In this document: piece by piece, positions 24,590 through 36,072 of the stretch
How positions within the stretch are numbered: position 1 is the first letter of the stretch
Layout of the letters: each line of letters begins with the position of its first letter
DNA from: Candidatus Zixiibacteriota bacterium
GTDB lineage: Bacteria; Zixibacteria; MSB-5A5; WJJR01; JAJRUJ01
Assembly: GCA_020051695.1 (NCBI GenBank)
Contig: JAGVQM010000041.1
Span: 1-64,000, forward strand
Direction of reading: 5' to 3'
Length of the DNA stretch: 64,000 nt
The notes under the pieces: model-generated
Seen by the model: only the letters and a program-made list of their open reading frames with translations
Database searches by the model: none
What the model was told of the DNA's origin: nothing
Position numbers and translations under genes: made by a program

Positions 24590-26221
24590 TCATTCCGCCC
24601 GCAAAAATGGATAGCGATAATCCGTGGGTGGGACAAACGTTTCTTTGATCGTCCGTTGCGAAATCCAGCGCAGCAGGTTGAATAGACTGCCGGCTTTGTC
24701 ATTGGTGCCCGAGGCCCGGCTGCCGCCAAACGGCTGCTGCCCGACTACCGCGCCGGTCGGTTTGTCGTTAATATAAAAGTTTCCGGCAGTATGGCGCAGG
24801 CGGTCGGCGATTTTCACAACCGCCCCGCGGTCCTGCGCGACTACCGCGCCGGTCAGCGCGTAGGGTGAGGCTGTGTCACATGCGTCTAGTGCCGCTTCGA
24901 GGTCCCGGTCGGCGTAGACAAATATAGTCAGTACCGGCCCGAAAATTTCCTCGCAGATCAGTTTGAATTTCGGGTCCGTGGTCTGGACAATCGTCGGCTC
25001 GATGAAATACCCCTTGCTGTCATCGCAGCGACCGCCGCAGAGTATCGTCGCGTCGGCAGAATGTTTCGCATAATCGATATATTCCCTGATACTTTCAAAG
25101 GCCGGTTTGTCGATCACCGCGTTCATGAAATTCGAGAAATCGCGCACATCGCCCATCTTGATCGTGGTGACTTCGGCCAATAGGCGCTCTTTCACTCCGG
25201 CCCAGATCGATGCGGGGACAAACATCCGCGAGGCGGCCGAACATTTTTGTCCCTGGTACTCGAAGGCGCCGCGAACCGCCGCGGTCACCAGCGCGGCCGG
25301 GTCGGCCGACGCATGGGCAAAAATGAAATCCTTGCCGCCGGTCTCCCCGACGATGCGGGGATAGGTCTTATAGTTCTTAATATTTGTTCCGACAGTTTCC
25401 CACATGCCCTGGAATACCGCGGTCGAGCCGGTAAAATGGATGCCGGCGAGTTCCGGAGAGGCCAGTACCGGGTTACCGACCTGTCCGCCCGAACCCGGCA
25501 CCATGTTGATCACGCCGGGGGGCAGCCCCGCCTCTTGCAGGAGTTGCATGATATAATATGCCGAATACACCGCCGAAGAGGCCGGTTTCCAGACCACCGT
25601 GCAGCCCATCAAAGCCGGGGCGGTCGGCAGGTTGCCGGCTATCGAAGTGAAATTAAACGGGGTCACGGCGAAAACAAAACCCTCCAGCGGCCGGTGTTCC
25701 ACCCGGTTCCAGCAGCCAGGTGAGGACCAGGGCTGCTGCTGGTATAGTTGCTGCATGTAATAGGGATTGAACCGGTAAAAATCGATCAGCTCGCAGGCCG
25801 AATCGATCTCGGCCTGGAATACATTTTTGCTTTGCCCCAGCATCGTCGCGGCGTTCAGCACATCGCGATATGGTCCGGCCAGCAGATCAGCGGCTTTCAG
25901 GAAGATCGAGGCCCGTGCCTCCCACGGCATCTCCGACCACGCGGCGAATGCCTCACCGGCGGACTTGATCGCCCGGGCAACTTCTTTGTGCCCGCCTTTA
26001 TGATACCGGCCCAGCAGCCGGCCGTGATCGTGCGGCATCCGGCAATCGGCAAAATTGCCGGTAGTCACCTCTTGGCCGCCGATAAATAAGGGAATTTCAA
26101 TCTGTTCACCGGCCTGTGCCTGTAATTGTTTTTTTAACGACTCACGTTCGGGTGAGTCGGGAATATACCCCTTGATCGGTTCGTTGCGGGGAAACGGGAC
26201 TTCGAAAAAAGCATTATGCAT
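24590..26221 (-). CDS. pruA: L-glutamate gamma-semialdehyde (1-pyrroline-5-carboxylate) dehydrogenase
   Basis: A 543-residue NAD-dependent aldehyde dehydrogenase that turns the proline breakdown product into glutamate. The N terminus (FEVPFPRNEPIKGYIPDSPER) is that of the monofunctional P5CDH family. VTPFNFTSIAGNLPTAPALMG and WKPASSA form the NAD site, VGETGGK holds general-base Glu293, and GQKCSAASR holds nucleophile Cys327. Start at 26221 with GGAGGT eight bases upstream. No proline dehydrogenase lies beside it. Together with four exported peptidases in the window it suggests peptide/proline use. Confidence 0.95.
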   Translation of the reverse strand: MHNAFFEVPFPRNEPIKGYIPDSPERESLKKQLQAQAGEQIEIPLFIGGQEVTTGNFADCRMPHDHGRLLGRYHKGGHKEVARAIKSAGEAFAAWSEMPWEARASIFLKAADLLAGPYRDVLNAATMLGQSKNVFQAEIDSACELIDFYRFNPYYMQQLYQQQPWSSPGCWNRVEHRPLEGFVFAVTPFNFTSIAGNLPTAPALMGCTVVWKPASSAVYSAYYIMQLLQEAGLPPGVINMVPGSGGQVGNPVLASPELAGIHFTGSTAVFQGMWETVGTNIKNYKTYPRIVGETGGKDFIFAHASADPAALVTAAVRGAFEYQGQKCSAASRMFVPASIWAGVKERLLAEVTTIKMGDVRDFSNFMNAVIDKPAFESIREYIDYAKHSADATILCGGRCDDSKGYFIEPTIVQTTDPKFKLICEEIFGPVLTIFVYADRDLEAALDACDTASPYALTGAVVAQDRGAVVKIADRLRHTAGNFYINDKPTGAVVGQQPFGGSRASGTNDKAGSLFNLLRWISQRTIKETFVPPTDYRYPFLRAE

Positions 26222-26491: not shown

Positions 26492-27478
26492 TTGGCCAAA
26501 AAGTATGACAACCGCGCTGCACGGTGGCTCCGGCTCGTTTTATTGCTCCCTTTGCCCATTATCGCCTTTCTCCTCTGGCGTTCCGGTGACGAAACACGCC
26601 GGGGATTATTTGAGTCGGCGTTGTCCGCTGCGGGAACACCCGCAACCATCCTGCCGAGCAAACTGTACCTGCCGGCCCATTTGCCCGGCGCCGGATTTAA
26701 CATGGCCGATACCAGCCAATATTACGACAAGGAAAATCTCTATGTCAAAATCGACGGCCATGATGTGGCGTTTTTCCGTTTCGGGTTTGTGTCATTGACT
26801 TTCGCCGCATATGCCGGAGAAAACGGCGGGGCGCTTGACGTGTACGCTTACCGGATGGACCGGCGGGAAAACGCGCTGGGCGTGTACGCTGCCGAACGGT
26901 CCGATGACCGAACGAATCTGTCAGTGGCCGAAGCCGGATATGAATCGGGCGGGGCACTATTTTTCTATTGCGGGCCGTGGTATGTACAAATCATCCCGTC
27001 CGGCGGGGTTGCGGGCCTTGCGGCAGCCACCAGGGAAATCCTCGATTCCCTGGGCCGCATCATCCCTGTGCCCGCCGCGCCGTCGGCCGCACTGGCCTGG
27101 TTTCCCGCTGCCGGGCGTGTGGAAAATTCCGACGGCTATTTCCCCGACAATGCCTTCGGCGTGGATTTCATTGGTGACGTATTCACCACCCAGTACCGCG
27201 CCGGCGGGGAGTTGATCACCGTATTCCGGCAGCGGTCCGACTCCGCGGTTGCCATGTATGATCGCTATTGTAATTTTCTGGCCGCCAATGCCGAACCGGA
27301 AGACGCAAAAAACGTGGCCGGTGTCGCCGTGGCGCGGTACATCGATTATGGCGAACGGATTTGGCTTTTCACGATTGATGATTCGTTTATCGGCCTGACC
27401 GGCTCCGCGCCGGAGGACGACATGAAAAAATTGGCGAATGAGTTGATCGCCGCCGGTCAGCGGGAACAGACGGAGTAA
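26492..27478 (+). CDS. DUF6599-like membrane-anchored protein
   Basis: About 328 residues from TTG 26492, chosen because a GGGGGGAAACC site lies eight bases before it; no ATG fits. A signal anchor (RLVLLLPLPIIAFLLW) is followed by an exported domain. DKENLYVKIDGHDVAFFRFGFVSLTFAAY matches the DUF6599 pattern (nLYeyiDGgAe.Yl.yGf), and a second half repeats the beta-rich plan (YGERIWLFTIDDSFIGLTG). DUF6599 genes are commonly found beside DUF362 and ferredoxin genes, as here, so it is probably a periplasmic part of the redox module. Molecular function unknown. Confidence 0.7.
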   Translation: MAKKYDNRAARWLRLVLLLPLPIIAFLLWRSGDETRRGLFESALSAAGTPATILPSKLYLPAHLPGAGFNMADTSQYYDKENLYVKIDGHDVAFFRFGFVSLTFAAYAGENGGALDVYAYRMDRRENALGVYAAERSDDRTNLSVAEAGYESGGALFFYCGPWYVQIIPSGGVAGLAAATREILDSLGRIIPVPAAPSAALAWFPAAGRVENSDGYFPDNAFGVDFIGDVFTTQYRAGGELITVFRQRSDSAVAMYDRYCNFLAANAEPEDAKNVAGVAVARYIDYGERIWLFTIDDSFIGLTGSAPEDDMKKLANELIAAGQREQTE

Positions 27479-27487
27479 TCGTTAGGG

Positions 27488-28444
27488 ATGCAGCGCAGAG
27501 AGTTCCTCATTCAGACTGCAAAAGCCGGCGCCGCGGCGCTGGCGGTGACCGGCGCGGGGATCTGGCTGGCCGGCCGCAGCGTAACGAAACGCGATTCAAT
27601 CTTCCATATTCCCGATTATTCGGTCGGCAAAGAAAAACTGGCGCGGGACGTTGTGGTGGCTCGGGGCGCAGATGCCCGCGCCATGATCGAAACCGGTTTG
27701 CGCGTGATGGGTGGGATCGAGAAATTTGTAACCGCCGGAGACAAAGTCCTGATCAAACCCAATGCCGGGTTTGACCGGCCGCCGATCCTAGGCGCAACGA
27801 CCTCGCCGCAGGTCGTCACGGCCATCGTCGAATTATGTCTGGCAGCCGGGGCGCGCGAGGTTATCGTCACCGATAACCCGATCAACTCCCCGCAGGCCAG
27901 TTTTGCCCGTTCGCAAATTGCCCCGGCCGCCGAACAAGCGGGCGGCAAAGTGTATTACCTGACCGGCCGCGACTTCGAGGAAACCGCCGTCGGCGGCATA
28001 GCGATCGGCAATTTTTCCGTCTGTGCCGGTGTGCTCCATGATGTGGACCGGGTTATCGGCGTGCCGACATTGAAAGACCACAACCTGTCGGGGATGTCGT
28101 TTGCGATGAAAAACTGGTATGGCCTGCTAGGGGAGGGGCGCAACCGCTTCCATCAGGATATCCACAACGTCATCGCCGACCTGGCGCTGATGATCAAGCC
28201 GACGCTGATTATCGGCGATGCCACCCGGATTCTCACCCGCCACGGTCCCACGGGCGGCTCACCGGCGGATGTCAAACCGGGGGCGACGATTATTCTCTCC
28301 ACCGATGCCGTGGCGGTTGATGCCCTCGGGATCGAATTGCTGGGCCGCACGCCGCAGCAATGCCGCAGCATTTTGCTGGCCGCCGAACGGGGGATCGGTT
28401 CGGCCGACCCGCGTGCCCTGCGGTATGAAGAGGTCGCCGTCTGA
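27488..28444 (+). CDS. Tat-exported DUF362 protein
   Basis: A 318-residue protein with a twin-arginine leader (MQRREFLIQTAKAGAAALAVTGAG). The body is the DUF362 fold: DKVLIKPNAGFDRPP, GAREVIVTDNPIN, DRVIGVPTLKDHNLSGMSFAMKNWYGLL, and a HGPTGG block. DUF362 is usually linked to iron-sulfur proteins; this version lacks the ferredoxin tail found in some members, and the next gene supplies clusters separately. Tat export implies folding, perhaps with a cofactor, before crossing the membrane. Stop and next start overlap (TGATG at 28442-28446). Role: probable periplasmic redox or cluster-handling partner. Confidence 0.85.
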   Translation: MQRREFLIQTAKAGAAALAVTGAGIWLAGRSVTKRDSIFHIPDYSVGKEKLARDVVVARGADARAMIETGLRVMGGIEKFVTAGDKVLIKPNAGFDRPPILGATTSPQVVTAIVELCLAAGAREVIVTDNPINSPQASFARSQIAPAAEQAGGKVYYLTGRDFEETAVGGIAIGNFSVCAGVLHDVDRVIGVPTLKDHNLSGMSFAMKNWYGLLGEGRNRFHQDIHNVIADLALMIKPTLIIGDATRILTRHGPTGGSPADVKPGATIILSTDAVAVDALGIELLGRTPQQCRSILLAAERGIGSADPRALRYEEVAV

Positions 28445-29943
28445 TGAAAACGGTCCGCACGATCTACCAATTGTTTTTCCTTGGGTTGTTTTTCTTCCTG
28501 TTATACGTGGCCACATATGACCGGTTGGCGGGATATCCGTTTCGATTGTTCCTCGATACCGATCCGCTTGTTGCTGTTTCCACGGTGTTGTCCACGGGGA
28601 CATTATACCGCGCGTTATGGTATGCCATGCCGCTGTTGGTGCTGACGATTTTTCTCGGACGGTTCTATTGCGGCTGGATCTGCCCCCTGGGCACGTTGCA
28701 GGACCTCACCGCTATGTTGCGCGGAATGAAGCTTAAAGATAAAATGCGGGTGAATACCTACCGGCCGTTTCAAAAGCTGAAATATCTGCTTTTATTGGCT
28801 TTCCTGGTTATGGCGTTGTTAGGCGTTTTGCAAATTGGTCTGCTCGACCCGATCGTCCTGTTGACCAGGGCTTTGACCACCTCGATATACCCCGCCATTG
28901 ATCGCGGCGATAGTCTGCTGTACCTGACCGGGCGGGATTTTCCTCTGGGATGGATCGCCGGACTGCTGCTCCTGGCCGTCCTTGTTGCCGCGTATCTGCA
29001 CCCGCGTTTGTGGTGCAAGATGCTGTGCCCGCTGGGCGCGCTGTTGGGATTGTTTTCGCGCTGGTCGATTTTTCATATCCGCCGCTCGGCAGACGGTTGT
29101 GATGATTGCCGGATCTGTGTCGGCCACTGCGCGGCCGGCGCCGCGCCCGATCAGCAGCTTCGCAAATCCGAATGTATGCTGTTATTGGGCTGTCTGGAAG
29201 AGTGCCCGAGCAAGGCGATCACGTACGGTCCGACAAATGTTGCGAGCATCCCACCAGTCGTCGGCCCGGACCTGACCCGCCGGCGCCTCGCGGGCGCCGT
29301 ATTGGCCGGCATCGCCGCGCCGATGATTTTTCGCGCACAACCAGCGGGCGTTGCTACCCCCCGCCCGCAGTTGATCCGGCCTCCCGGCTCGCTGCCCGAA
29401 CCGGAATTTTTGGCCCGGTGCATCAAATGCGACGAGTGTATGCATATTTGTCCGACGAACGTGTTGCAGCCGTCAATGACCGAAGCGGGTATCGAGGGTT
29501 TCTGGACCCCGGTATTGAACAACACCATTGGGTTTTGCGAGGTCAACTGCGTCTTGTGTGGTGAGGCCTGTCCCACCGGAGCGATCGGCCGGATCACCCT
29601 CGATCAAAAGCATGGCCGGGGGGAATTTGCCGGACATCCGATCGTACTGGGCACCGCGTTTTTCGATCAGGGCCGCTGCCTGCCGTGGGCGATGAACCGT
29701 CCCTGTGTGGTTTGCCAGGAAGTCTGTCCGACCTCGCCGAAAGCAATCAAGACTAATGAGGTGACGGTTGTCGAGGAGGGCCGGGAGATTCATTTGAAAC
29801 GCCCCCGCATTGACCCCGATCTATGCATCGGCTGCGGGATCTGCGAGCACGAATGTCCGGTAGTCGACCGACGCGCCGTATACGTCACCTCAGTGGGGGA
29901 AAGTCGTTCAAAAAGAAATGTTATGGTGCTGAAAAAAAACTGA
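28444..29943 (+). CDS. Membrane polyferredoxin (NapH/MauN-like) with multiple 4Fe-4S motifs
   Basis: A 499-residue protein. Four or five membrane helices fill residues about 1-210 with the NapH-type CGWICPLGTLQD and WCKMLCPLGALLG motifs on the inner face. After that come Cys-rich segments (CDDCRICVGHC, CLEECPSKAI), then a further hydrophobic segment near residue 280 and exported-style ferredoxin motifs: CIKCDECMHICPTNV, CEVNCVLCGEACPTGAI, CVVCQEVCPTSPKAI and CIGCGICEHECPV. It should pass electrons through or along the membrane, in the manner of NapH/NapG. It is joined to DUF362 upstream by a 1-bp overlap and followed by a Tat-exported oxidoreductase, the likely electron partner. Confidence 0.9.
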   Translation: MKTVRTIYQLFFLGLFFFLLYVATYDRLAGYPFRLFLDTDPLVAVSTVLSTGTLYRALWYAMPLLVLTIFLGRFYCGWICPLGTLQDLTAMLRGMKLKDKMRVNTYRPFQKLKYLLLLAFLVMALLGVLQIGLLDPIVLLTRALTTSIYPAIDRGDSLLYLTGRDFPLGWIAGLLLLAVLVAAYLHPRLWCKMLCPLGALLGLFSRWSIFHIRRSADGCDDCRICVGHCAAGAAPDQQLRKSECMLLLGCLEECPSKAITYGPTNVASIPPVVGPDLTRRRLAGAVLAGIAAPMIFRAQPAGVATPRPQLIRPPGSLPEPEFLARCIKCDECMHICPTNVLQPSMTEAGIEGFWTPVLNNTIGFCEVNCVLCGEACPTGAIGRITLDQKHGRGEFAGHPIVLGTAFFDQGRCLPWAMNRPCVVCQEVCPTSPKAIKTNEVTVVEEGREIHLKRPRIDPDLCIGCGICEHECPVVDRRAVYVTSVGESRSKRNVMVLKKN

Positions 29944-30029
29944 ACAAACCGGAACATAAGTTTCAGTCTGTGTCTTCGACCAGACCGGGCTGTGACCACC
30001 AGTCATTCGGGAAAGAGAAGGGGCATTTG

Positions 30030-31253
30030 ATGGAACGCCGCAGGTTTATCCGCAATCTGGGGATGGGCGCCGCCGCGGTCGCGGTCGCCGGTTGTGCTGG
30101 GGAAAAAGAAGAACAAAAAGCCGCGCCGGAAACCACGGCCAAACCGAAAGGTATTACTAAATATACCGCAATCGGCGGCACCGGCCTCAAGATGTCGGAT
30201 ATCTCCATGGGTTGCGGCGGCCTGGACAATCCCTATGTCGTCGAACGGGCGCTGGACCTGGGGATCAACTACTTTGATACCGCGCCGGACTATCAGAATG
30301 GCGAATCGGAAATTACGCTCGGCAAGGTTTTCAAAGACCCCGTAAAACGGGATAAGGCCATTATCTGCTCCAAATTCTGCAAACGGGGCGCTTACGGTCT
30401 GCATCTGGACCTGGGCTCACCCGAGGAGGATTTCATCGCAGCAGTCGAAGGCAGTCTCCAGCGGCTCAATACCGACCATATCGAATTCATGATGGTGCAC
30501 GCCATCGGCGAACGGCAAAACGACATGGCGCGACTGACCGACCCGCCGATGCTGGCGGCCGCGGCAAAACTGAAGGAACAGGGGAAAATCCTTCATCTGA
30601 ACGTTTCGTCCCACGGCCCGCATTGTATGGAAGACTGTCTGCTGGCGGCCATCGATTCCGGCCACTTTGCCTCATTCATGCCCGCGTTGAATTTTGCGCG
30701 GCATACACGTCTGGATGAGGTGCTGGCCCGCGCGGTGGAGAAAAACGTGGGGGTGGTGGCCATGAAGACCCTGAGCGGCGCGCGGGAAGAAGACTTGCAG
30801 GAATTTTCCGGCGAGGGTACCGACCTGGCCCAGGCGGCGTTTAAATGGGTGTTCACCAAACCCGGTGTTTCCGGCCTGGTCGTGACCATGAAGACCACGG
30901 CCGATGTCGAGAAATATGTCGCGGCTTCCGGCAAAGAATTCACCGAGCAGGACCAGCTCCTGCTGGATCGGTATGCCGCAAAAATGAACACCGGTTATTG
31001 CCGCACCGGTTGCGGCGATTGTCTGACTTCATGCCCGCATGAGGTCGCAATCGCCCACATCCTGCGGCTGGACATGTATTTTACCGCCTATCGCGACCAG
31101 CTAAAGGCCCTGCAGGAGTATCATCGCCTGCCGCAACGAATGAAGCCGTCGTTGTGCGCCACGTGCAGCGGTCCGTGCACGCAAAGTTGCAGTTATGGGC
31201 TGCCGGTCAAGGAACGGCTGCTTGATGCTTCAAGGCGGCTGCAACTGGCTTAG
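30030..31253 (+). CDS. Exported (Tat and lipobox) aldo/keto reductase with Cys-rich C terminus
   Basis: A 407-residue protein. The leader MERRRFIRNLGMGAAAVAVAGC combines a twin-arginine motif with a lipobox (VAGC), so it should be folded, exported and lipid-anchored. The body is an AKR barrel: SDISMGCGGL, GINYFDTAPDYQNGESEITLGK (catalytic Asp and Tyr), ICSKFCKRG with the Lys region, and MVHAIGE. The C-terminal 100 residues carry CRTGCGDCLTSCPHEV plus CATCSGPCTQSCSYGL, a ferredoxin-like ending known from some AKR families. Start at ATG 30030 behind GAGAAGGGG. An AKR outside the cytosol has no NADPH supply, so electrons probably come from the polyferredoxin. Confidence 0.88.
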   Translation: MERRRFIRNLGMGAAAVAVAGCAGEKEEQKAAPETTAKPKGITKYTAIGGTGLKMSDISMGCGGLDNPYVVERALDLGINYFDTAPDYQNGESEITLGKVFKDPVKRDKAIICSKFCKRGAYGLHLDLGSPEEDFIAAVEGSLQRLNTDHIEFMMVHAIGERQNDMARLTDPPMLAAAAKLKEQGKILHLNVSSHGPHCMEDCLLAAIDSGHFASFMPALNFARHTRLDEVLARAVEKNVGVVAMKTLSGAREEDLQEFSGEGTDLAQAAFKWVFTKPGVSGLVVTMKTTADVEKYVAASGKEFTEQDQLLLDRYAAKMNTGYCRTGCGDCLTSCPHEVAIAHILRLDMYFTAYRDQLKALQEYHRLPQRMKPSLCATCSGPCTQSCSYGLPVKERLLDASRRLQLA

Positions 31254-31268
31254 GCCACGCGCCGAGCG

Positions 31269-34181
31269 TCATTGTGCACACGGGTTGCAGGGTCCGACAC
31301 CGGAACTCCGGTACACGTATTGCACGCAGAACGCCACATCGATCGGCGTGATCCCGCCGCCGCAGGTCCAATCGCCGTTTTCCAGCGGACAAATCGGCAA
31401 TGGATGCCGTGAATCGAGACTCCGGAAAACATAATTGACCAAGACCGTAACATCCAATGGATTGATCGATCCATCGAACGCGACATCGCAGAAACCGGTG
31501 CAATCACAAAGATCGCAGACATCACCAATACTGTCGCCATCGGCGTCGGCCTGGTTGGGGTTGGTGGTGGTCGGGCAATTGTCGCAAACATCTCCATGTC
31601 CATCACCGTCGGCATCCTGTTGATTGGGATTGTATTTTGTGGGGCAATTGTCGTCAGGGCAGACATTGGCCGTCACCTCCGGGTCGCCGTACCCGTCGCT
31701 GTCGGTATCGAAACACTCATCGCATACATCACCGATGCCGTCGAGATCGCCGTCCTCCTGCCCGGTGTTGGCCGCCAGCGGGCAATTGTCTTCGGTATCG
31801 GGCACCATGTCGCCGTCATCATCGTCGTCACAGACATCCCCATACGCGTCGCCGTCAAAGTTGTCCTGTCCCGGGTTGGCCATCGTCGGGCAGTTATCGC
31901 TCAGGTCCGGCACGCCGTCGCCGTCATAGTCGTCATCGCACGCATCGCCAATGCCGTCGCCGTCAAAGTCTTCCTGCAGCGGGTTGTCCACCAACGGGCA
32001 GTTGTCGCAGGCGTTACCCCATAAGTCGCTGTCGTCGTTCTCCTGGCCCGGATTGGCGGTCAACTGACAATTGTCGAATTCGTCATAGATGCCGTCGTCA
32101 TCGTCGTCCCCGTCACAGGCGTCACCCAGGCCGTCGCCGTCGGTGTCCGTCTGGTCGGAATTGAACACGCCCGGGCAATTGTCGTCGGGACATTCGTTTT
32201 CGGGGTGTCCCGGATCACCATACCCGTCCCCGTCCGTATCGATACACAAACCCTTGAGCCAGCTGAAAACGCGCTTGAATACCTCGGCTCGCTTGGTATA
32301 ACCGGGTAATCCGTCGGCAATGGCTTCCGCGCCGAAACCGAAAAACGCCACGCGATAGCCGTTCGTGGCAATATGGACGCCCGCGACGTCCAAGGAGTTG
32401 TAATAGGTATAACAGGGGACCGCCACATCGTCCAGCGGCTCAAGCTTGTCCGGCGAATTCTGGTTGGCTGCCCCGCCCGGCCCGCCGAGGGGCAATGTAT
32501 GCCCGTCACTGATTGAATCGCCCGGGACCCCATTGGCCAGGATCATCGGCATCCCGGAGATAAAACGCAGATGCAAATAGTCCCGGAGAAAAGTCGAGTC
32601 GTCGTCATTAGCGAGGTCTTCGGCAATATCCTGTCCGGTCATAAACAATTTGCCGCCGCCGTCCAGGAAATCCCGGAGGTTGCCCACATCCTCCGCCGAA
32701 AGGATTTCACTGCGGGCATCACCGGTCACCCAGATGGCCAGCGGACACTGGGCCATTGTGTCTCCGGGCGGGGAAAACAGGGTAGTTTTGTCCCAGGTAA
32801 TGTAGGGGACGCGGGCGGTATCGAAATAATCGGCAAAATAGTGCTGAATTTCCTTGGAAGACGCTTCATCATCATCGACAATAAAACACTGCGGCTGCCC
32901 GATATTCATGGTGATCGTATCGTAGCGATTGAAAGCGCCGCCGTTGGCCGAGTAGGCCAATTCAAAATCCACAATGGTGGGCGGGAATGTTTCCTCTACC
33001 GCAAAGGTGATCGGGTCGGCGGCATTATCGGCCTGCGCCCAGCGGGCGAGGTCGCCGAAATCGGCAACCGGGTCGGTAAAGACGATTTCCGGGTGAACAG
33101 TCGATGCCATGACCGTCAACCCCCCCGCTTCCGCCCCGATATTGGAAACAGCAAATACCAATTCGAGACCCTGCTCGCCGGGGTCAGGACGTTTATTGTC
33201 ATTGCCCAGATTGTCGCTGATTGAAAAGCCCTCACGCGTCAGATAGGGGAAGTGGGGTCGCTGGTAATCGCAGTATGCGGCGCCCTCTTCGACGTGGTTA
33301 CAGCCGAAGGCGATGCGCATGTAGCCGTCTTCGCCCCAACCCGGTCCCCACGAATTGCGAAGAAACCACACCCCGTTCTCGCCCTGGTTGTCGTCCCAGC
33401 CGACCAGCACCACGACATGGTTGGTCCATTCTTCATTCTCGCAGGCATTGAAAATGCCCTCGGTATATGACTGGAAATATCCGCCGGCGTAGACAAAAAC
33501 AGTGATCGGCCCGTAATCGAGAATGGCCTGTTTCATCGCCTCAATATCCGGGTTGCTCCAGGGATCGATGCCGATCCAGTCCCAGCTCTCAATGCCGAAA
33601 ACATGGGGGTAGGGGCAGCCGCAGGGGAGGTCGCTTGCCGCGTACGGAAAATCCGCCTCAAAAACCGCCCCGTAGTCACCGCAAGGATCAGCATATTCCG
33701 GATATACGGGCACCTGGAAATATTCAAAACAGAGTCCGCCCCCGTCACATCCCATCTCCCACTGGTTGCAGCTGACCAGCCACTGTTCGGAAAGGTCGAC
33801 TTCGATGTGGTCGACGATCTTAATGGCGCATTCAAGCGCACCGACCGTGGCAAAGGCCCAGCAGCTGCCGCAACTGCCCTGGTTTTTAATCGAGGTGCAG
33901 CCGTCATAATCCCGCCAATCGTAACTTGCAGGGAGGGCCATTCGCGGTTTGATCGTGCTGGTGCCCCGAATTGACTGCCAGTTGTCCGGGCGCCGGGCGC
34001 CGGTAAGCTGTTCGAGAGGGATTAGCGTGGCCGGGTTGGGCCCGACTTTGAACGTCCATCCCTCATCGGCGATTTGTTGTTGCATCCGGGCGATATCTTC
34101 ATCAGTCAGTTGACCTTGGACCGGGGCTGCGCACAGCAGGATTGCGGCCGGGATGACAAGTAGTAAGCAAGAAACCCGCAT
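31269..34181 (-). CDS. Secreted papain-family (C1A) cysteine protease with TSP3 repeats and dockerin-like end
   Basis: A 970-residue exported protein. Signal peptide to VQGQ; a short propeptide; peptidase domain with QGSCGSCWAF (nucleophile Cys107), WTNHVVVLVGW (His255) and RNSWGPGWGEDGYMRI (Asn276). A beta-rich middle is followed by a GATase/ThuA-like region (residues about 440-640: FIVDDDEAS, LAIWVTG, LRDFLDGGGKLFMTGQD). About eight thrombospondin type 3 blocks (DTDGDGLGDACD, DNCP..NP.Q) span about 645-890 and should bind many calcium ions. Two dockerin-like blocks close the protein. Likely surface-held or released protease. Its stop lies 15 bp from the convergent AKR stop. Confidence 0.93.
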   Translation of the reverse strand: MRVSCLLLVIPAAILLCAAPVQGQLTDEDIARMQQQIADEGWTFKVGPNPATLIPLEQLTGARRPDNWQSIRGTSTIKPRMALPASYDWRDYDGCTSIKNQGSCGSCWAFATVGALECAIKIVDHIEVDLSEQWLVSCNQWEMGCDGGGLCFEYFQVPVYPEYADPCGDYGAVFEADFPYAASDLPCGCPYPHVFGIESWDWIGIDPWSNPDIEAMKQAILDYGPITVFVYAGGYFQSYTEGIFNACENEEWTNHVVVLVGWDDNQGENGVWFLRNSWGPGWGEDGYMRIAFGCNHVEEGAAYCDYQRPHFPYLTREGFSISDNLGNDNKRPDPGEQGLELVFAVSNIGAEAGGLTVMASTVHPEIVFTDPVADFGDLARWAQADNAADPITFAVEETFPPTIVDFELAYSANGGAFNRYDTITMNIGQPQCFIVDDDEASSKEIQHYFADYFDTARVPYITWDKTTLFSPPGDTMAQCPLAIWVTGDARSEILSAEDVGNLRDFLDGGGKLFMTGQDIAEDLANDDDSTFLRDYLHLRFISGMPMILANGVPGDSISDGHTLPLGGPGGAANQNSPDKLEPLDDVAVPCYTYYNSLDVAGVHIATNGYRVAFFGFGAEAIADGLPGYTKRAEVFKRVFSWLKGLCIDTDGDGYGDPGHPENECPDDNCPGVFNSDQTDTDGDGLGDACDGDDDDDGIYDEFDNCQLTANPGQENDDSDLWGNACDNCPLVDNPLQEDFDGDGIGDACDDDYDGDGVPDLSDNCPTMANPGQDNFDGDAYGDVCDDDDDGDMVPDTEDNCPLAANTGQEDGDLDGIGDVCDECFDTDSDGYGDPEVTANVCPDDNCPTKYNPNQQDADGDGHGDVCDNCPTTTNPNQADADGDSIGDVCDLCDCTGFCDVAFDGSINPLDVTVLVNYVFRSLDSRHPLPICPLENGDWTCGGGITPIDVAFCVQYVYRSSGVGPCNPCAQ

Positions 34182-34790: not shown

Positions 34791-34890
34791 TTCCGCTGTG
34801 CTAATAATCGACCTGCTTAAATAATTGTCGATTTTGGCGGGACGCAAAGACATATTGACAAGTATATTTACTTATGAAAAGGAGTTGACA

Positions 34891-36072
34891 ATGGAGAATA
34901 TTTCATTCTTGTTGGGTTCTGGTTTTTCGAAGCCAGCAGGTTATCCGCTCCTGAGTGAAATGAATGAGCGATTAGGCAATATTAAGGCAGACCAAATCCT
35001 TGTTGACGGAGCCATGACAGCGTTCTTTCTGAAAGGGGAAAATGACCCAAACGCTAAATGGATGGGACTGGATCAACGATTATTCGCCCAAGAATTTGTA
35101 TCGTTCTACAAGAACAAGATATTGCCCGATTCAGAGTCATTTAATTATGAAATGTTCTACGATTTCCTGCGGGAATTGTCTGATAGCAAAGAGTTTTCAA
35201 CCGAATTAAAGCATTTTTTTCAGGAATTTAAGCGGAGAAGAAAAACCCGCACGAGCGAGCACGATTTGCTCCTGCATTTCGATCTAATTTTCATGCAATT
35301 GATTGAAGGCCAGCTATGGAAAGACTTTGAAGTCGCAAGCGTAAGTAAATCATGTAATCCAAAATATCGCGAATTCCTTACATTGATCGAAGAGCTTATC
35401 GAGGGCTATCGCATACATTTTCACTCCCTTAACCATGATTTGTATTTTGAGCACTTGGGCAGATCTGATCAGTTGCCCATTGTCCCTGATGACGGATTCG
35501 ATGAACTTGGATCTTCATACTACGGACAAGTGACGCATGAGTTTGAACAATACCATGTGCGGTTACCGCGCTTTACAAACAAATATGAAAGTCAAATTTG
35601 TTTATACAAGCTTCACGGGAGTATTGATAATTATTGGTTTCGATGGGGACGCTTCACGGAAACCATTAAATCGAAAAGAGGATTAGATACCCAAATCCTT
35701 AAAGAGGAGAATGTGGACGGAAAACTCGCATACATCGGAGATGGTTTATACTATCATCCCGATATTCTTGCGGGAACGACCCAAAAAATTGAACGATACA
35801 CCCACGGTAATTATTATCCAGCAGTATTCAAACATTTTGAATCAAACTTGAAATATTCAATCGCGTTAATAATCATCGGGTACGGTTTTGGCGACGAAGG
35901 TATAAACGAACTCCTTGACAAAAACATCCTCAACAGGGAATCGATTCCTGTATTTGTTGTTGATGTCAAATCTCCTCCTGAATATTTCATGAAATATGAG
36001 AATATTTGTTTTGTTGCAGGAGGAGTATCCAATTTTGATCGAAAACAGATTCTCTCGAAACTTGCAAACTGA
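34891..36072 (+). CDS. SIR2-like NAD-binding protein, probable anti-phage defence effector
   Basis: A 393-residue soluble protein. Motifs in order fit the SIR2-like (SIR2_2) family: FLLGSGFSKPAGYPLL at the N terminus (NAD-binding GAGxS region), NHDLYFEHL near residue 180 (TxNYD position), LYKLHGSID (the HG catalytic region) and IIGYGFGDEGINELL near the end (sirtuin-like GYGfgD.hIN). Such proteins in defence systems hydrolyse NAD+ on phage sensing. Start ATG 34891 behind AAAAGGAG. The gene is visibly A+T-richer than its neighbours and has different codon use, and is flanked by direct repeats, so recent acquisition is likely. No partner gene is present, so it would act as a single-gene system or be an orphan. 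Confidence 0.75.
   Translation: MENISFLLGSGFSKPAGYPLLSEMNERLGNIKADQILVDGAMTAFFLKGENDPNAKWMGLDQRLFAQEFVSFYKNKILPDSESFNYEMFYDFLRELSDSKEFSTELKHFFQEFKRRRKTRTSEHDLLLHFDLIFMQLIEGQLWKDFEVASVSKSCNPKYREFLTLIEELIEGYRIHFHSLNHDLYFEHLGRSDQLPIVPDDGFDELGSSYYGQVTHEFEQYHVRLPRFTNKYESQICLYKLHGSIDNYWFRWGRFTETIKSKRGLDTQILKEENVDGKLAYIGDGLYYHPDILAGTTQKIERYTHGNYYPAVFKHFESNLKYSIALIIIGYGFGDEGINELLDKNILNRESIPVFVVDVKSPPEYFMKYENICFVAGGVSNFDRKQILSKLAN

Follow-up and report, generated by a model that had tools for sequence, protein, structure and literature searches.

What could an aldo/keto reductase (AKR) be doing outside the cytoplasm, encoded beside a membrane polyferredoxin? AKRs are known as cytoplasmic NAD(P)H enzymes, and the question is raised by four consecutive genes in a Candidatus Zixiibacteriota bacterium (assembly GCA_020051695.1). 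All four lie on the + strand at positions 26492-31253 of the stretch that we analyzed, the first 64,000 nucleotides of contig JAGVQM010000041.1 (hereafter, the window), and they encode a DUF6599 protein, a DUF362 protein, a polyferredoxin and an AKR. An earlier note, made from the letters alone, had described them as an envelope redox module outside any pathway it could name, in which the AKR would take electrons from the polyferredoxin. We confirmed the observation and found the module well supported, and no published function or study was found for the four-gene set; the overall interpretation stands in part.

On our best reading, the set joins an exported iron-sulfur (Fe-S) AKR to an electron wire of the NapGH-like kind. 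In its full form, to which we give about an even chance, the four genes would form one periplasmic, quinone-linked oxidoreductase module in which electrons move between the AKR and quinone via Fe-S clusters, the oxidizing direction being the likelier. The support at the level of sequence covers the protein families, the export signals, the cluster motifs, the linkage across phyla and the catalytic tetrad of the AKR.

The four genes and their products

The products were assigned to families by Pfam and NCBIfam profile searches, and the features are as follows.

26492-27478, + strand: DUF6599 protein; TTG start; Pfam PF20244, E 9e-35.
27488-28444, + strand: DUF362 protein, exported by twin-arginine translocation (Tat); Pfam PF04015, E 2e-47; Tat motif MQRREFL.
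28444-29943, + strand: polytopic polyferredoxin with NapH-like and NapG-like halves; NapH/NapG models and Fer4 domains (Pfam).
29278-29286, + strand: internal twin-arginine motif of the polyferredoxin, residues 279-281, TRRRLAGAVLAG; homologue alignment.
30030-31253, + strand: AKR, a Tat lipoprotein with two C-terminal 4Fe-4S motifs; Pfam PF00248, E 4e-28; residue survey.
30999-31190, + strand: double 4Fe-4S extension of the AKR; C324-x3-C-x2-C-x3-C and C376-x2-C-x3-C-x3-C387.

Gene calls and profile searches reproduced the families, coordinates and spacing that had been claimed, with a 9 bp gap, a 1-bp overlap and an 86 bp gap in gene order. A scan of the + strand revealed no promoter-like site within the four genes, and terminator-like sites occurred at about chance level. 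Two twin-arginine leaders, on DUF362 and the AKR, the membrane NapH-like core, and the lipobox and Cys-rich end of the AKR are present as the note had described. The polyferredoxin goes beyond its claim, with a NapG-like C-terminus and an internal twin-arginine (RR) motif.

Residues 2-261 of the polyferredoxin match NapH models of NCBIfam, and residues 279-482 match NapG models, with scores below the family cut-offs (75.6 vs 213 bits and 79.5 vs 269 bits, respectively); TIGR02163 and NF007012 are among the models matched. The protein has the NapGH-type layout of four transmembrane (TM) helices, two CX3CP motifs and two 4Fe-4S motifs in the NapH-like half and a four-cluster NapG-like domain. 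All 27 Cys are retained in 64-65 of 65 homologues, and the linker carries RR in 61 of them and KR in the other 4. This RR lies between the fourth of four strong hydrophobic segments and a weak fifth segment that falls below the 1.4 threshold. Tooke et al. 2017 (PMC5449189) describe a polyferredoxin (PFD) that is a fusion of NapH, with clusters at the cytoplasmic face, and NapG, with four periplasmic clusters. They report that NapH and NapG together are a quinol dehydrogenase, that the MLMS-1 PFD was Tat-dependent by reporter fusions, and that this dual Sec/Tat family is present in Nitrospirae and Latescibacteria. The window polyferredoxin shares with that family the NapH-NapG fusion, the conserved RR ahead of a weakly hydrophobic fifth TM segment and the Cys-rich regions, and is of the same type. 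By analogy, the internal RR would mark Tat export of the NapG-like half, and we assume the topology of the tested homologue because it has the same architecture. The paper deals with export, and its accessible text names no partner genes or substrate.

The NapGH quinol dehydrogenase of E. coli and Wolinella likewise combines a NapH-like part, which has four TM helices, CX3CP motifs and two 4Fe-4S clusters on the cytoplasmic side, with a Tat-dependent NapG-like part of four clusters. The window version differs in that both parts are fused in one polypeptide scoring far under the NapG and NapH cut-offs, and in that its partners are DUF362, DUF6599 and the AKR, with no nitrate reductase proteins.

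The AKR domain is well recognized (PF00248, 98.8 bits vs a cut-off of 24), and weak Fer4 matches of Pfam lie at the C-terminus. The leader, MERRRFIRN...VAGC22, combines a twin-arginine motif with a lipobox. A Tat leader is found on practically every module AKR whose start is complete, and a convincing lipobox is limited to the window lineage. In an alignment of module AKRs and other Tat-AKRs, the catalytic tetrad (D83, Y88, K115, H157) is intact in the window protein, and almost all module AKRs retain D-Y-K-H across great divergence. Eight C-terminal Cys (324, 328, 331, 335, 376, 379, 383 and 387) are all present in 18 of 18 module AKRs that have the Fe-S extension; judging from their spacing motifs, they would hold two 4Fe-4S clusters. 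AKRs with such a double 4Fe-4S domain are those of the COG1453 type. They have in common with the window AKR the AKR domain, the tetrad and the eight-Cys C-terminal extension, but the module members are Tat-exported and have Tyr, Phe or Val in place of an Asn at the adenosine contact.

Further Tat-AKRs were observed. The window genome has a second Tat-exported Fe-S AKR (G000:C6:192708-193886; L039:8691-9947), which adjoins a 525-residue TPR protein; Tat-AKRs of two further genomes (L046, L050) have this protein beside them as well. At L046:9284-10525, a Tat-AKR paralogue without the tetrad (N-Y-S-Y) stands in tandem with an intact copy, beside DUF6599.

The DUF362 protein has a twin-arginine leader (MQRREFLIQ) and no Fe-S motif. 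Its structure model, with a predicted local distance difference test (pLDDT) of 94, gave 15 Foldseek matches below E 1e-3 (1.6e-5 to 8.5e-4; probability 1.00; TM score 0.38-0.49), the named ones being lactate and malate racemases of the LarA superfamily. The predicted fold is LarA-like. Residues K196, H198, K208, N209, R218 and H222 are invariant in 55 sequences, and in a weak profile alignment (P 0.02) H198 and K208 fall on the two residues of the LarA H...GGRK motif that are the catalytic His and the cofactor Lys of LarA. The Pfam clan CL0471 contains both DUF362 and the LarA superfamily (DUF2088) (PMC11770544). DUF362 is set apart from that superfamily by its Tat export and by not requiring the nickel-pincer cofactor.

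We considered this cofactor for DUF362, since the fold fits, and rejected it. The window genome has LarC, the protein that inserts Ni into the LarA cofactor, but LarC is absent from the module-bearing genomes G020 (100% complete), G025, G027 and G028. Considering that complete genomes with the module lack LarC, the cofactor cannot be a requirement. In two genomes, LarC adjoins DUF6599 in one and a Tat-AKR in the other (G023:C1:1906163-1908014; G043:C85:31927-34330), which is a possible link to LarA-type cofactor chemistry.

The DUF6599 protein (PF20244, 120 bits vs a cut-off of 27) has an N-terminal hydrophobic segment at residues 8-33 and no Tat motif. Its AlphaFold2 model (pLDDT 90.4) consists of an anchor helix and two similar alpha/beta halves. 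With Foldseek, one half matched TM1622, CyanoP, PsbP and other small Mog1/PsbP-like proteins, weakly to moderately, and the whole model matched TP0453 and RseB weakly. Accordingly modelled, the protein looks like a single membrane anchor with a periplasmic domain resembling tandem Mog1/PsbP-like repeats, and its role may be accessory and non-catalytic. PDB sequence searches gave no useful relative for DUF6599 or DUF362, and among 5.39 million open-access papers no function was found for DUF6599 or for Tat-exported DUF362 proteins.

Recurrence of the gene set

We scanned GTDB, one genome per species, by DUF362 alignment, took the 80 closest loci with their flanks, and mapped the four families there with home-made profiles. 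The full four-gene set recurs in about ten phyla. Complete sets were found in Nitrospirota (8 loci), Magnetococcales (4), Verrucomicrobiota (2), SAR324 (2), Planctomycetota (2, with the AKR divergently oriented), Gemmatimonadota (2, in another arrangement), Acidobacteriota (1 good and 1 divergent), Hydrogenedentota, one gammaproteobacterium and one further bacterium. The module genes at these loci mostly overlap or lie tens of bases apart. The window's order, DUF6599-DUF362-polyferredoxin-AKR, is also that of Verrucomicrobiota, SAR324, Acidobacteriota and Hydrogenedentota, and the order AKR-DUF6599-DUF362-polyferredoxin occurs in Nitrospirota, Magnetococcales and the gammaproteobacterium; these two dominant orders track two clades of the DUF362 tree. 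A looser arrangement was seen at one Nitrospirota locus (L072, PEAB01000080.1, 6038-11306), with about 1.9 kb between DUF6599 and DUF362 and about 2.3 kb between DUF362 and the polyferredoxin.

Neighbours were tallied at the 45 loci where DUF362 is flanked on both sides by 4 kb or more of sequence. The polyferredoxin was present at all 45; DUF6599 and the AKR occurred together at 18, DUF6599 only at 3, neither at 24 and the AKR only at none (Fisher p 8e-10 for the DUF6599-AKR association, a value that ignores relatedness). On the DUF362 tree, the four-gene label has to change 6 times, and well-supported branches force 3 or more of these changes, so the set does not stem from a single recent event. 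When independent co-gain of the AKR and DUF6599 on this tree was put to a sign test, there were 5 independent pairs, about 3 concordant and 0 discordant, and we claim no significance for co-gain because the pairs are too few.

Within Candidatus Zixiibacteriota, we searched 132 genomes with DUF6599 and the window DUF362, polyferredoxin and AKR and compared the positions of the matches; the neighbour counts are lower bounds from the matches listed. At least 76 of 79 polyferredoxin loci adjoin a same-strand DUF362, and at least 34 of 79 adjoin DUF6599. Among the matches listed, the AKR stands beside the polyferredoxin in three genomes only, all of the window's order: the window's own, G124 of the same family, and G131, where the set is split across two contigs. 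The other six genomes of that order have none of this polyferredoxin among their close matches. The co-occurrence of the four families that the earlier note had put up for checking is thus borne out across phyla, but within the phylum the AKR joins only in the window's order. Tat-AKR genes lie near DUF6599 in 23 of 45 cases in the phylum, often convergently and mostly without a nearby polyferredoxin. DUF6599 is therefore a partner of both DUF362/polyferredoxin and the Tat-AKRs, since it neighbours both. Chance does not account for the four-gene arrangement, considering that it is kept both in relatives and in distant phyla.

Other combinations were also observed. The window genome holds two more DUF6599-DUF362 pairs (G000:C39, L036:8921-11310; G000:C24, L037:8367-10120) with no adjoining polyferredoxin or AKR match, and one of these DUF362 proteins has a Pfam Tat-signal match. 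In two phylum genomes (L043:6424-12211, L044:2328-8095), a Memo-AMMECR1 fusion, a second DUF362, a radical SAM protein and a 710-residue protein adjoin DUF362-polyferredoxin.

The pairing of polyferredoxin and AKR recurs outside the four-gene set, as it was found in Parabacteroides distasonis (NZ_OY725762.1; L150:6206-12203). The genes there run polyferredoxin, Tat-lipoprotein Fe-S AKR, Tat-lipoprotein Fe-S AKR, polyferredoxin, with no DUF362 or DUF6599 annotated at the cluster. Both polyferredoxins share 26-28% identity with that of the window and have the internal RR. The cluster is related to the window system and lies in a culturable gut commensal, where it is accessible to genetics.

Electron path and cofactor of the AKR

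We propose a path from the quinone pool through the NapH-like half, the NapG-like half and the AKR clusters to the AKR active site. The NapH-like half would lie in the inner membrane with its two clusters at the cytoplasmic side and exchange electrons with the quinone pool; the NapG-like half, passed out by Tat, would carry four periplasmic clusters. The AKR would be exported folded via Tat, anchored as a lipoprotein in the window lineage, and would perform hydroxyl/carbonyl chemistry at the intact Asp-Tyr-Lys-His site. Its two C-terminal clusters would connect it to the polyferredoxin wire, so that soluble NADPH would be unneeded. DUF362 and DUF6599 would be dedicated partners, with DUF362, nearly always alongside the polyferredoxin, as a core subunit. 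The formation of a complex, this path and its direction, the substrate and a two-electron gate between hydride and the Fe-S clusters are what we infer. The window genome has TatC and, twice, the complex I subunit NuoH.

AKRs such as codeinone reductase contact the cofactor with Lys263 at the pyrophosphate and with Arg269 and Asn273 at the adenosine monophosphate (PMC8524200). The reading of the earlier note would have fallen with an AKR that was cytosolic and kept a full NADPH site; we found instead Tat leaders and an altered adenosine end, with T286, D292 and Y296 at these positions in the same spacing, in place of a set of contacts that is not universal in the AKR superfamily. The Asn is found in 0 of 18 module AKRs with the Fe-S extension, which mostly have Tyr or Phe, and in 11 of 13 without it. 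The Lys and Asn positions have been lost together, with T, S, A or G at 286 and non-Asn at 296 in 18 of 18. Among seven Fe-S control AKRs, six keep the Asn, namely an exported protein of Parabacteroides and five cytosolic-type proteins that have an intact tetrad and no leader; the seventh, without it, has lost its tetrad. The Fisher p for the Asn loss is 9e-7, ignoring relatedness. The adenosine contact has thus been lost where the AKR is in the module and has its own clusters, which is no more than suggestive of a loss of NADP binding. A bolder version, doubtful but possible in our view, is that the AKR has abandoned NAD(P)H for redox via its 4Fe-4S clusters and the NapH-NapG wire, possibly with a new hydride-carrying or flavin cofactor in the site left empty and a cofactor-bearing LarA-fold partner.

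Several points weigh against the proposed path. AKRtyl has Ala at the position of the adenosine-contact Asn in the alignment, and its structure was solved with NADPH (8jwk; PMC10923870); the Asn loss is therefore no proof of NADP loss. The exported Parabacteroides AKRs retain the Asn, and no biochemistry was found in the literature for any AKR of this exported Fe-S type. Where hydride is known to pass its electrons to Fe-S clusters, a flavin or a comparable gate stands between, and no such two-electron gate was identified for the module AKR. No menaquinone route was identified in the window genome (MqnA absent; MenD a weak match below the cut-off). Since some module AKRs have no Fe-S extension, this cannot be the route of the wire in every case. 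Finally, DUF362 and the polyferredoxin occur without the AKR at 27 of the 45 full-flank loci, and this core must accordingly have another role too.

AKRtyl and the exported Parabacteroides AKRs also favour the rather unlikely alternative that the AKR is exported with tightly bound NAD(P), recycled internally or through the Fe-S domain. Its model is the glucose-fructose oxidoreductase (GFOR) of Zymomonas, whose fold differs from that of AKRs. GFOR is likewise a Tat-exported oxidoreductase, but it binds NADP tightly and has no Fe-S clusters; NADP-containing GFOR is reported to be exported by Tat with the cofactor bound (Halbig 1999, via PMC6708511). The intact tetrad and the E-N kept by the module AKRs without the Fe-S extension are consistent with such an enzyme. 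However, the joint loss of Lys and Asn in the 18 module AKRs with the extension, while tetrad-intact, cytosolic-type Fe-S AKRs keep the Asn, argues against it.

The same wiring could also run reductively, with the polyferredoxin oxidizing quinol and periplasmic aldehydes or ketones being reduced in detoxification or respiration. AKRs are mostly carbonyl reductases, and carbonyl/alcohol couples lie at about -190 to -200 mV. NapGH-type modules are quinol dehydrogenases (PMC5449189, PMC5928378), in keeping with this direction. However, the standard potential of menaquinol, -74 mV (PMC5928378), makes it a weak donor for such couples, and we consider the reductive direction unlikely. It would be likelier, by this comparison, that a periplasmic hydroxyl compound is oxidized and its electrons enter the quinone pool. 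The earlier proposal of electrons from the polyferredoxin thus remains plausible as wiring, but the opposite direction is the more likely one.

Very improbable is a maturation or repair module, in which polyferredoxin-DUF362 would provide electrons for the maturation or reactivation of envelope proteins, with the AKR and DUF6599 as regulatory or structural parts: the 24 of 45 loci without DUF6599 or the AKR, the PsbP-like DUF6599, suggesting an assembly role, and the NYSY paralogue fit it, but that nearly every module AKR, however divergent, has D-Y-K-H points to catalysis.

Neighbouring genes and significance

Two neighbours were considered as module members and rejected. The divergent aldehyde dehydrogenase gene at 24590-26221 is syntenic in one relative only (G124), and at the other module loci no sign was seen of it or of the downstream papain-like protease. 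The latter is a 970-residue secreted papain-family protein (31269-34181, - strand), convergent with the AKR; it carries thrombospondin type 3 repeats, and its end is dockerin-like. Beyond it lies a gene for a 415-residue protein (34825-36072, + strand), by eye SIR2-like (FLLGSGFSKPAGYPL) and possibly a defence gene.

If the proposed reading is true, these conserved exported AKRs, found in about ten phyla and wired to respiration, would represent a periplasmic dehydrogenase or reductase of a new type. DUF6599 and the Tat-exported DUF362 proteins would also gain their first functional setting.

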